A DNA stretch of 64,000 bases from the NCBI GenBank assembly GCA_014156375.1, contig RQJH01000002.1, forward strand, positions 92,331 to 156,330, written 5' to 3'. Made by a program: the position numbers and the translations under genes. This stretch comes from Enterobacteriaceae bacterium 89. Lineage in GTDB: Bacteria > Pseudomonadota > Gammaproteobacteria > Enterobacterales > Enterobacteriaceae. The notes below the pieces were generated by a model, which was not told where the DNA came from, did not search any database, and saw nothing but the letters and a program-made list of their open reading frames with translations. Shown in pieces: positions 20,137 to 46,537 of this stretch (position 1 is the first letter of the stretch; each line of letters opens with the position of its first letter).

Positions 20137-20727
20137 ATGCAGCTTAAACGTGTGGCAGAAGCCAAACTGCCAACCCCATGGGGCGATTTCCTGATGGTGG
20201 GTTTTGAAGAACTGGCAACCGGGCAGGATCACGTCGCCCTGGTGTTCGGCGATATTAGTGGCCATACCCCTGTTCTGGCCCGCGTGCACTCAGAGTGTCT
20301 GACGGGCGACGCGCTGTTCAGCCTGCGCTGTGACTGCGGCTTTCAGCTTGAAGCGGCCCTGACCCACATTGCAGAAGAAGGTCGCGGCGTGCTGCTGTAC
20401 CATCGTCAGGAAGGTCGTAACATTGGTCTGCTCAATAAGATTCGCGCCTATGCGCTGCAGGACCAGGGTTATGACACCGTAGAAGCCAACCATCAGTTAG
20501 GTTTTGCTGCCGACGAACGCGACTTCACCCTGTGCGCAGACATGTTCAAACTGCTGGGCGTCGATGAAGTTCGCCTGCTGACCAACAACCCGAAAAAGGT
20601 TGAAGTGCTGACTGAAGCCGGGATCAACATCGTTGAGCGCGTGCCGCTGTTGGTAGGACGCAACCCGAAAAACGAACATTATCTGGATACCAAAGCCGCT
20701 AAAATGGGCCATCTGCTGGGTAATTGA
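20137..20727 (+). CDS. ribA: GTP cyclohydrolase II
   Basis: First committed step of riboflavin synthesis: GTP to 2,5-diamino-6-ribosylamino-4(3H)-pyrimidinone 5'-phosphate, with formate and pyrophosphate released. 196 residues, identical length to E. coli. The zinc ligands Cys54, Cys65 and Cys67 sit in [19 protein letters not shown]. The GTP-site segments [10 protein letters not shown] and LTNNPKK are intact. Divergent from pgpB, with SD TGGAG. Confidence 0.98.
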
Positions 20728-20734
20728 GTGCGAT

Positions 20735-20759
20735 GCGGTGCTTTCGGGTGCCGCGTTTT
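20735..20759 (+). terminator. Probable ribA terminator
   Basis: GCGGTGC and GGTGCCGC pair (two wobble pairs) around a short loop, followed by GTTTTC. Moderate strength; it separates ribA from the trpS2 leader. Confidence 0.55.
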
Positions 20760-20805
20760 CTCATTGTTGATTGTGATAACTGGTAAATTGCGATAACTTC
20801 ACTGA

Positions 20806-20862
20806 ATGAACTGTATCGTTTCTTCCCCACTCATTTCTGCATTACGTTGGTGGCAGCCTTAA
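20806..20862 (+). CDS. Putative Trp-codon leader peptide of trpS2
   Basis: An 18-codon ORF, MNCIVSSPLISALRWWQP, ends 101 bases before trpS2 and contains two adjacent TGG codons (20848-20853) near its end, as in trpL. The in-frame codon just before the ATG is a stop, so this ATG is the only possible start. No good Shine-Dalgarno sequence is visible, which is the main weakness. A precedent for leader peptides before synthetase genes is pheM before pheST. Function is inferred. Confidence 0.5.
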   Translation: MNCIVSSPLISALRWWQP

Positions 20863-20946
20863 TCAAGGCAGCCTGATTTCCCCTATTCTTTTTTAATCTC
20901 AGGCCGCCGGAAGGCGTCCACTCTGTCAACAGAACCGTCTCCGGCG
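20856..20946 (+). promoter_or_regulatory. Putative mutually exclusive leader hairpins before trpS2
   Basis: Three alternative pairings follow the Trp codons. 1:2 is GCCTT (20856-20860) with AAGGC (20865-20869). 2:3 is GGCAGCCTGA (20867-20876) with TCAGGCCGCC (20899-20908), nine pairs and one mismatch. 3:4 is CGCCGGA (20905-20911) with TCCGGCG (20940-20946), a perfect seven-base stem ending six bases before the SD AGGAG (20953). No T run follows 3:4, so control of translation initiation is more likely than termination. Confidence 0.5.
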
Positions 20947-20963
20947 CATTACAGGAGCTTCTG

Positions 20964-21983
20964 ATGACACAAACTACTTCGAATTCACACCTGATTTTGA
21001 CCGGCGACCGCCCGACGGGACAGCTGCATTTGGGCCATTATGTCGGCTCACTACGCCAGCGCGTGACCCTTCAGGATCGCTATCCGCAGTACATTTTGAT
21101 TGCAGATCTTCAAGGGCTGACCGACAACGGCTCCCGGCCGGAGAAAATCGCCCACAACGTACTGGAAGTGATGGCCGATTATCTGGCCGTCGGCATCGAT
21201 CCACAGCGTTCGACGATTTGCCTGCAGTCGGCACTGCCTGCGCTGGCGGAACTGACCATGCTGTATATGAATATCGTGACAGTGTCACGCGTAGAGCGAA
21301 ACCCTACGGTCAAAAATGAAATTCAGCAGAAAGGCTTTGCCCGCTCGCTGCCCGCCGGGTTTCTGGTTTATCCGATAAGCCAGGCTGCCGACATTACGGC
21401 TTTCGGCGCCGATCTCGTGCCGGTCGGCGATGACCAGCAGCCGATGATCGAACAGACTAATGAAATCGTGCACAAGATGAACAGCCTGCTGCCCGAGCCT
21501 GTGTTGCGACACTGCCAGGCGTTGCTCAGCCCCGTTGGCCGCCTGCCTGGGGTGGACGGTAGCGCCAAGATGTCGAAATCTCTTGGAAACACGTTAACGC
21601 TTAGCGCTACAGAGGAAGAAATCCACAAGGCCGTCAGCGCGATGTATACCGACCCGCAGCACTTGCGCATCAGCGATCCGGGTAAGGTGGAAGGCAATGT
21701 GGTGTTTACTTATCTGGATGCTTTTCATCATGACACGGAGAAAGTCGCAGCAATGAAAACACACTATCAGCAAGGCGGGCTTGGCGACCGGCAATGCAAA
21801 AACGAGCTGGAAGAATGCCTGCAAGCTCTGCTGGCCCCCATCCGGGAGCGCAGAAAGACGCTGATTGCTGACAAAGGGATGCTGCTGGAGTTGCTGAAAG
21901 CAGGTAGCGAAAAAGCACATCAGAAAACCCAGCAAACGCTGGTCAAAGTGAAACGCGGATTGGGGTTACCGGTGATGTTCTGA
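20964..21983 (+). CDS. trpS2: Second tryptophanyl-tRNA synthetase (TrpRS II)
   Basis: Class I aminoacyl-tRNA synthetase charging tRNA-Trp, 339 residues. The HIGH-type motif is LHLGHYVG (about 21-28) and the KMSKS motif is complete (SAKMSKSLGNT). It differs clearly from the housekeeping E. coli TrpS, which lies far away in another gene cluster, so this genome probably carries two. Auxiliary TrpRS enzymes often resist inhibitors such as indolmycin; that role is inferred here. SD AGGAG at 20953. Isolated between ribA and acnA, where E. coli has no gene. Confidence 0.92.
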   Translation: MTQTTSNSHLILTGDRPTGQLHLGHYVGSLRQRVTLQDRYPQYILIADLQGLTDNGSRPEKIAHNVLEVMADYLAVGIDPQRSTICLQSALPALAELTMLYMNIVTVSRVERNPTVKNEIQQKGFARSLPAGFLVYPISQAADITAFGADLVPVGDDQQPMIEQTNEIVHKMNSLLPEPVLRHCQALLSPVGRLPGVDGSAKMSKSLGNTLTLSATEEEIHKAVSAMYTDPQHLRISDPGKVEGNVVFTYLDAFHHDTEKVAAMKTHYQQGGLGDRQCKNELEECLQALLAPIRERRKTLIADKGMLLELLKAGSEKAHQKTQQTLVKVKRGLGLPVMF

Positions 21984-24758: not shown

Positions 24759-24892
24759 AGCTCCTCCTTAATGACAGGGATATATCCTGACTCTCCTCAG
24801 GGTCTACCATTAAAGATAACACACGCTAGTCGTAACGTTTTGATAACAACCCGAAATGCTAAATTCCTTACTTCTTTTTACAGGCGGAAAAT

Positions 24893-24920
24893 AAAAAACC
24901 CGATGAAACCATCGGGTTTT
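24893..24920 (-). terminator. Terminator after ymiC
   Basis: AAACCCGATG and CATCGGGTTT form a ten-base stem with loop AAAC, with a T run on the minus strand; it separates ymiC from acnA. Confidence 0.85.
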
Positions 24921-24927
24921 GCGGAAT

Positions 24928-25026
24928 TTATTTGATGATGATCCACAGCAGCTGACACCAGAACAGCAGCGACAGGGAAAAGACCCCGATCCAGGACCAG
25001 TATTTTACGTTGCGTTTCGTTTTCAT
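24928..25026 (-). CDS. ymiC: YmiC, tiny membrane protein
   Basis: 32-residue ORF read from the minus strand, beginning MKTKRNVKYWSWIGVFSLSL. A basic head is followed by a single hydrophobic segment that ends in WIIIK. Length, order and character match the small protein YmiC encoded between yciX and acnA in E. coli. Probably a single-pass inner-membrane protein with no known function. Ends just before a strong terminator. Confidence 0.75.
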   Translation of the reverse strand: MKTKRNVKYWSWIGVFSLSLLFWCQLLWIIIK

Positions 25027-25150
25027 TATTTGACACCAATAGTTATTCACTTTTACCGCCCATTCAGGCAGTAACCCTGGTGCTGTAGTGTATTTATTAA
25101 CGAGTACAAAAAGACAAACTCAACGAAGCGGAAACAGAAATAAGATTAAT

Positions 25151-38191: not shown

Positions 38192-38239
38192 ATGACCCAC
38201 TTTTCCGTTACTCTGCACAGCTGGTGGCGTACAACCTGA
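38192..38239 (+). CDS. trpL: trp operon leader peptide
   Basis: 15 residues, [15 protein letters not shown], with tandem Trp codons (38222-38227) and the WWRT ending also seen in the E. coli leader (GWWRTS); the first nine residues differ. SD AGGT at 38181. Ribosome stalling at the Trp codons when charged tRNA-Trp is scarce lets the antiterminator form. Confidence 0.93.
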
Positions 38240-38283
38240 TAAGGGCTGTGCGATCGCGTCTGTACAAGACGAACAGATACCCG

Positions 38284-38309
38284 GCCCGCCAGTGAGCGGG
38301 CTTTTTTTT
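38284..38309 (+). terminator. trp attenuator terminator
   Basis: GCCCGC (38284-38289) pairs with GCGGGC (38296-38301), followed by eight T residues. Same position and shape as the E. coli trp attenuator. Confidence 0.94.
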
Positions 38310-46439: not shown

Positions 46440-46537
46440 CAACACCGAATAGTTGAGCAAATCACTCAGGTATTCGGTACGACATTGCTCACATTGCTTC
46501 CAGTATTATTTGCCCGCACTTGTGCGGGCTTTTTTTT
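46440..46537 (+). ncRNA. RyhB-like iron-responsive small RNA
   Basis: About 97 nucleotides. Positions 46479-46508 carry the RyhB family core, including CATTGCTCACATTGCTTCC, which matches the E. coli RyhB seed/Hfq region as I recall it. A 5' stem ACCGAATA (46444-46451) with TATTCGGT (46471-46478) replaces the different E. coli 5' stem. The 3' end is GCCCGCAC/GTGCGGGC plus eight T. A Fur box covers the promoter. The E. coli copy lies elsewhere (yhhX/yhhY), so this is probably a paralogue of the RyhB-2 type. The transcription start is estimated from the -10 box. Confidence 0.85.

Follow-up and report, generated by a model that had tools for sequence, protein, structure and literature searches.

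A candidate tryptophan-responsive attenuator of translation initiation before trpS2 in Enterobacteriaceae

The ribA-trpS2 gap

In the window, by which we mean the whole 64-kb stretch of DNA analysed, direct reading placed ribA at 20137-20727 and trpS2 at 20964-21983, leaving a gap of 236 bases in which the terminator scan indicated a probable ribA terminator at 20732-20757. The TrpS2 protein matched TIGR00233 at 239.9 bits and was 28.5% identical to the other (main) TrpS of the same genome. Its best solved relatives were 1yi8 and 2a4m, both from Deinococcus radiodurans; 2a4m is named tryptophanyl-tRNA synthetase II. At 21093-21128 (protein ILIADLQGLTDN), TrpS2 carries IADLQGLT at the position of IVDLHAIT in the main TrpS. 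The features of the gap and of trpS2 are as follows.

20771..20776, + strand: -35-like hexamer TTGTGA of the putative leader promoter; a weak match, positioned where the profile of 74 leaders is T-rich around -35
20794..20799, + strand: -10-like hexamer TAACTT, spaced 17 nt from the -35 element and ending 6 nt upstream of the leader ATG
20806..20862, + strand: leader ORF of 18 codons, MNCIVSSPLISALRWWQP*, ending RWWQP; predicted to be leaderless
20848..20853, + strand: tandem Trp codons TGG TGG (putative sensor), present in 62 of the 63 family genomes with trpS2
20852..20860, + strand: strand 1; the 1:2 helix has 86.2% paired cells in 53 sequences
20865..20876, + strand: strand 2, partner of strand 1 or strand 3; the 2:3 helix has 95.9% paired cells
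20899..20911, + strand: strand 3 and part of the loop; pairs with strand 2, 3' or 4
20913..20919, + strand: strand 3', the downstream arm of hairpin 3:3', which resembles a terminator in some relatives but lacks a T run in the window
20930..20946, + strand: strand 4; its 5' part is the anti-Shine-Dalgarno (anti-SD), its 3' part pairs with strand 3
20953..20957, + strand: trpS2 Shine-Dalgarno (SD) AGGAG; SD-like sequence at 80 of 81 distinct trpS2 starts
20964..21983, + strand: trpS2, second tryptophanyl-tRNA synthetase, 339 aa (TIGR00233)

A sequence-only reading of this DNA had reported an ORF ending RWWQP with tandem Trp codons in the 236-base gap, followed by overlapping stems 2:3 and 3:4, and direct reading recovered them all, with 9/10 pairs in helix 2:3 (20867-20876 with 20899-20908) and 7/7 in helix 3:4 (20905-20911 with 20940-20946). 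To these we added helix 1:2 (20852-20860 with 20865-20873), hairpin 3:3' (20902-20908 with 20913-20919) and a helix between strand 4 and the trpS2 SD, termed 4:SD (20930-20934 with 20959-20963, and 20939-20942 with 20954-20957).

Conservation of the leader ORF and its putative promoter

The hexamer TGGTGG occurred 79 times on both strands of the window against a shuffle mean of 31, in line with the caution of the sequence-only reading that this motif alone is weak evidence. Searching 392 family genomes at the protein level gave 63 with trpS2, and all 63 upstream regions were compared. An ATG-started, in-frame tandem-Trp ORF was present in 62 of them; the 63rd (L105, MITEHITQSLQLTLLWLPS*) had a single Trp and kept the frame, so that every trpS2-bearing family genome had at least one in-frame Trp in the leader ORF. 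The conservation of the Trp pair and of its frame that the sequence-only reading had named as a check was thus borne out in the family.

Across 119 loci, the tandem-Trp ORF was found in 96 of the 106 distinct upstream regions; the other ten were L105, seven Firmicutes and two alphaproteobacterial MAGs (L080 and L083, 54% identity). Named alpha- and betaproteobacteria and other relatives also had the Trp leader. Among 398 genomes sampled more widely across the phylum, 25 had trpS2. Of these, 20 lay outside the family: 14 had tandem Trp codons, one had a single Trp (L129, MDNHAQTQTRFYWPSP*) and five were without (no such leader preceded trpS2 in L130, L132, L138, L142 and L143). Five of these 14 tandem-Trp leaders came from the same order, such as MKHIAQPTSFFFWWRSN*, and are called Aeromonas-like here as a guess. 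Two remote relatives among 369 genomes of the class, L120 and L121, had no leader.

Among the 74 distinct leaders with a TrpS2 identity of at least 66%, the distance from the chosen ATG to the Trp pair was 11-15 codons, and from the pair to the stop 2-3 codons in 64 leaders and 6-15 in 10; Trp codons other than the pair were absent from all 74. Within flanks of up to 1.5 kb at 86 loci, ribA and acnA were confined to the window's genus, L035 and L011, and the leader therefore appears to have been kept for trpS2 and not for its neighbourhood; since flanking genes differed among the 86 loci, the ribA/acnA neighbourhood was ruled out as the cause of conservation. The sole decayed trpS2 found (G045, which is not among the 63 positive genomes; L152, minus strand, about 3216-2745) still had a recognisable leader, in which the Trp pair now reads RR. 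Judged by this comparison, the leader ORF before trpS2 is more than a chance occurrence, and the ribA-trpS2 gap, with a short upstream ORF holding clustered Trp codons, has the make-up expected of a ribosome-mediated amino-acid attenuator.

The leader ORF of the window has no SD, as the sequence-only reading had observed and had counted as a weak point. A [TC]AnnnT hexamer stood 6-7 nt before the ATG in 74/74 leaders, compared with 5.7% at control positions and 7.8% before other ATGs, although in 11 leaders with several ATGs the start was picked by this -10-like hexamer, which favours a leaderless reading. The stricter TAnnnT was present in 60 of the 74 (2.0% in controls) and a TGn extension of the -10-like hexamer in 54 (0.3%), and a T-rich -35-like block lay at about the right distance, with T at -35 in 56 leaders and at -34 in 57. 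SD-like sequences, found at 80 of the 81 trpS2 starts, occurred at only 12 of the 74 leader starts, each time as AGGA within a -10-like CAGGAT. The window's own leader promoter was weak (7/12 to consensus by eye), and the consensus promoter scan of the window did not find it. The pattern in these 74 leaders, a promoter placing +1 at the ATG and no SD, suggests that transcription probably starts at or beside the leader ATG. The leaderless mRNA that would result is the likely reason why the leader has no SD, so that the presumed weak point probably has an explanation.

Alternative helices and the proposed switch

Helix statistics were calculated from 53 aligned leaders with 500 shuffles; shared ancestry remains in the shuffle and swap controls, and the results are for this reason read as strong and not as probabilities. 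In hairpin 3:3', 94.3% of cells were paired and 49 cells had changed on both sides (17 in shuffles), and in helix 3:4 the values were 91.9% and 30 (7 in shuffles); none of the 500 shuffles reached the score of either helix, and pairings slid out of register scored worse than the native ones for both. When pairs showing any double change were counted, the values of four for 3:3' and three for 3:4 were reached by 178 and 68 of the 500 shuffles, respectively. Helix 2:3 (95.9% paired) was nearly invariant and, like helix 1:2 (86.2%), showed no covariation in the 53 sequences; as far as the alignment goes, these two helices are conserved but uninformative. The compensatory changes that the sequence-only reading had expected in both of its stems were accordingly seen in 3:4 and not in 2:3.

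The 4:SD duplex had a mean of -11.2 kcal/mol against -7.1 kcal/mol when shuffled. The native duplex was better than the shuffled mean in 51/53 leaders, and native partners were better than swaps between unlike leaders in 52/53 and 51/53; for the 3-loop-3' segment with strand 4, native combinations beat swaps in 32/38 and 33/38. In 22 of the 24 remote leaders with the Trp pair (L071 and L134 left out), mean SD pairing was 0.83 against 0.70 with shuffled upstream sequence, lying above the shuffled mean in 19/22 with a fraction below 0.1 in 15/22; with the tested segment badly placed, the count was 10/22. Apart from 3:3', the consensus fold that RNAalifold gave for the 53 sequences contained just a few pairs, all in the 1:2 region; 3:4 and 4:SD overlap 3:3' and thus cannot show in one nested fold. 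By these comparisons, 3:3', 3:4 and 4:SD co-vary or co-evolve and are conserved together with the frame of the Trp pair, which indicates mutually exclusive downstream helices under selection and an alternative pairing of the trpS2 SD. In the Aeromonas-like L125, the strand 4:SD pair is plain (GTATCTCC with GGAGATAC), and L124-L128 have a near-perfect 6-8 bp match of strand 4 to the SD, such as TATCTCC with GGAGATA, which is cleaner than that of the window.

Leaders were also folded with ribosome masks and with forced helices. With L001 masked on the second Trp codon, 2:3 reached 0.69 and 3:3' 0.08; masked at the stop codon, 3:3' reached 0.99 and 2:3 0.00. The seven sequences of the window lineage (L001-L006, L011) behaved alike, with 2:3 at 0.53-0.71 and 3:3' at 0.04-0.29 under the second-Trp mask and 3:3' at 0.88-0.99 under the stop-codon mask. 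Three leaders whose ORF extends past strand 2 (L047, L109 and L112) were odd in this respect, with 3:3' at 0.00, 0.45 and 0.48 under the stop-codon mask. Outside the window lineage, 3:3' remained at least 0.86 in all stalled states, and over the 53 leaders forced 3:3' was more stable than forced 3:4 (mean -34.1 vs -29.1 kcal/mol), from which it follows that outside this lineage the choice would be kinetic or transcriptional. Mean SD accessibility was 0.53 with 3:4 forced and 0.26 with 3:3' forced, being more than 0.1 higher with 3:4 in 42/53 leaders and lower in 2. In unforced folding, it was higher in the stalled state than at the stop in 20/52 leaders, with a mean of 0.22 in both. The sequence-only reading had supposed that a ribosome stalled at the Trp codons frees strand 2 whereas one at the stop codon covers it; the 2:3/3:3' switch that this implies was seen in the window lineage, and the opening of the SD on stalling was not seen in unforced folds. 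A strict domino, in which 2:3 and a loop/3':4 pairing are forced together, received no clean support from the forced folds.

We consider that the ribA-trpS2 gap holds a ribosome-mediated, Trp-responsive attenuator of trpS2 acting mainly on translation initiation, with a probability of roughly 0.8. In this model, the transcript would begin at or near the leader ATG, and the 18-codon leader would be translated from a leaderless 5' end. With ample charged tRNA-Trp, the ribosome would reach the stop codon and cover strand 2, strand 3 would fold into 3:3', and strand 4 would be free to pair with the trpS2 SD, turning the gene off. With scarce charged tRNA-Trp, the ribosome would halt on the tandem Trp codons and free strand 2, which would hold strand 3 partly open for the arrival of strand 4; strand 4 would then invade the exposed loop and strand 3 to form 3:4, and the released SD would turn the gene on. 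From the helices we infer both the sequence of steps and the sign of control. Because the anti-SD lies in strand 4, formation of 3:4 should turn trpS2 on, not off; 3:3' with 4:SD would be the closed conformation and 3:4 the open conformation, as the SD accessibilities in the forced folds suggest. The sequence-only reading had cast 3:4 as the repressing stem, and this is probably the wrong way round. Its broader proposal of a Trp attenuator on trpS2 with trpL-like geometry, acting on translation rather than transcription, is well supported by comparison in this lineage. Table 1 of PMC2805695 gives trpS2 (STM4508) as 2-fold up in a Salmonella Typhimurium biofilm in which trpDCBA were 5- to 11-fold and trpR 3-fold up, a joint rise that fits induction on Trp shortage and is no proof of it.

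A classical transcription attenuator, with 3:3' as intrinsic terminator, 2:3 as antiterminator as in trpL, and SD pairing as a secondary matter, is in our judgement rather unlikely. In many relatives, 3:3' is a strong short-loop hairpin, followed in some by a U-rich tail (GGCGGCATTTTTAT in L117/L119, TTTGTTATTT in L012); 2:3 and 3:3' exclude each other, and the persistence of 3:3' in stalled states outside the window lineage would suit a fast co-transcriptional decision. The count of T in the nine positions after 3:3' ranges from 2 to 7 across relatives. In the window, however, the hairpin is short and followed by 3 T in 9, the terminator scan found none there, and the lack of a T run described by the sequence-only reading held. 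Termination alone would also leave the covarying strand 4, the coevolving anti-SD and the SD pairing of remote relatives unexplained. Some relatives may terminate transcription at 3:3'; the window's genus probably does not.

We regard as improbable that the RNA switch is real and the leader peptide merely couples translation, the signal being TrpR, a small RNA or the general translation rate. The leader ORF does pass through strand 2 in some clades (L044, L106 and L109), and the rise of trpR alongside trpS2 in the Salmonella biofilm (PMC2805695, Table 1) would agree with such a signal, but within an otherwise variable peptide that holds no other Trp, the tandem Trp varies least. A TrpR operator before the leader was ruled out, the best match in the window to a trp operator consensus being 10/18. 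That a chance ORF lies here among GC-rich repeats is scarcely credible: with TGGTGG so common in the window, its sequence alone could not exclude chance, but the Trp pair, its frame, the promoter spacing and three helices persist across genera despite changing flanks.

Related leaders and comparison with known systems

In a plasmid collection, 89 records matched, of which four were read (L170, L171, L172 and L173); some of these may be chromosomal. The leader before trpS2 is MNTKRSNATQRHLRWWLPS* in a Salmonella record, and leader and gene also occur together in records of Klebsiella pneumoniae and E. coli. L171 has IS26 close to the pair, and L172 has IS3000 and a predicted fragment of fosA8. 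Distant blastn of this leader-trpS2 DNA against 5426 E. coli genomes gave two plasmid matches and none on a chromosome.

When 246 family genomes were searched with a model built from the trpS2 leader, 39 had matches; apart from trpS2 leaders, these included DNA before a sodium-dependent transporter gene (NF037979; NSS-type) in one Edwardsiella-like and two Hafnia-like genomes, with a weaker match in G200. The transporter leaders end in Leu codons (...NLQLSLLLLII* and ...RRLLNLLLLLST; a Leu-rich example is MTMPVQRRLLNLLLLLST). In the 246 genomes, a Leu-rich leader preceded 7 of the 11 transporter genes found and was missing before 4. These loci (L149/L160, L151/L159, L161, L165, L167, L168 and L169) show a look-alike of the hairpin/strand-4/SD layout of trpS2, which may stem from shared descent or from convergence, and in L165 and L167 the strands have changed together (GCCACC/GGTGGC/CTGGTGG). 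In L165-L169, an extra short ORF seems to separate the leader from the transporter. Weak hits in G065, G114, G190 and G240 look like hairpins near other genes and were set aside. We tentatively propose, at somewhat less than even odds, that the trpS2 leader belongs to an unrecognised, modular family of proteobacterial attenuators combining a sensor ORF with an exchangeable switch (strands 2, 3, 3' and 4 and the SD). If so, the switch could respond to tRNA charging by acting on transcription, on translation or on both, with a leaderless sensor ORF in the case of trpS2.

The trpS2 leader had no Rfam match at gathering score in the window and none at E ≤5 within 20700-21100, and a scan of 17 loci yielded no T-box at the Rfam cutoff; with no match over the switch region, identity with a known Rfam leader or T-box was ruled out. 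The canonical Trp_leader (RF00513, 63.8 bits) lies at 38216-38309, about 17 kb from the trpS2 leader, and other Rfam matches in the window were STnc180 (24886-25100, minus strand) and RyhB (46473-46537).

The trpS2 leader resembles trpL in its short tandem-Trp ORF and overlapping alternative stems, and in both the stop codon adjoins strand 2. It differs in controlling a synthetase, in its proposed read-out at the SD and in having neither a T run in the window nor a leader SD. In the ermC/cat translation attenuators, which respond to drugs, a leader ribosome stalls, alters the pairing and frees a sequestered SD. Release of the SD by a stalled leader ribosome, proposed here, is the likeness to that class (ermC is named in PMC2965389). 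The trpS2 leader has conserved Trp codons instead of a drug response, and should for that reason sense charged tRNA-Trp. A T-box binds tRNA directly and, unlike the trpS2 leader, needs no leader ORF. The translational T-box of actinobacterial ileS described in PMC1262725 likewise puts a synthetase gene under predicted SD sequestration through tRNA charging. In Sinorhizobium meliloti, the leaderless trpL (rnTrpL) controls trpE(G) by transcription termination (PMC7298713). The likeness there is a Trp leader ORF on a transcript starting at the ATG, a start that is predicted in our case, and the difference is trpE(G) termination as against trpS2 and an SD switch in Enterobacterales.

Vecchione and Sello reportedly worked on a Trp attenuator of TrpRS1 in S. 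coelicolor. PMC1262725 predicts an attenuator before S. avermitilis trpS2, and the idea of a Trp attenuator before trpS is therefore not new. Those of Streptomyces share with ours a Trp leader before the gene of a second tryptophanyl-tRNA synthetase, but they are classical attenuators of Actinobacteria, whereas the present one is proteobacterial and would sequester the SD. We found no description of a Trp leader before proteobacterial trpS2 in the open-access literature; as far as that literature shows, novelty lies in the proteobacterial element itself, in its SD switch and in its predicted leaderless start. The likely rule for use of this second, very different tryptophanyl-tRNA synthetase, Klebsiella and Salmonella records included, would be expression on demand, in response to any fall in charged tRNA-Trp, whether from shortage or from failure of the main enzyme. 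One element would combine a trpL-like sensor with output at translation and a leaderless start; its natural variants differ in how terminator-like their hairpin is (2 to 7 T in 9).
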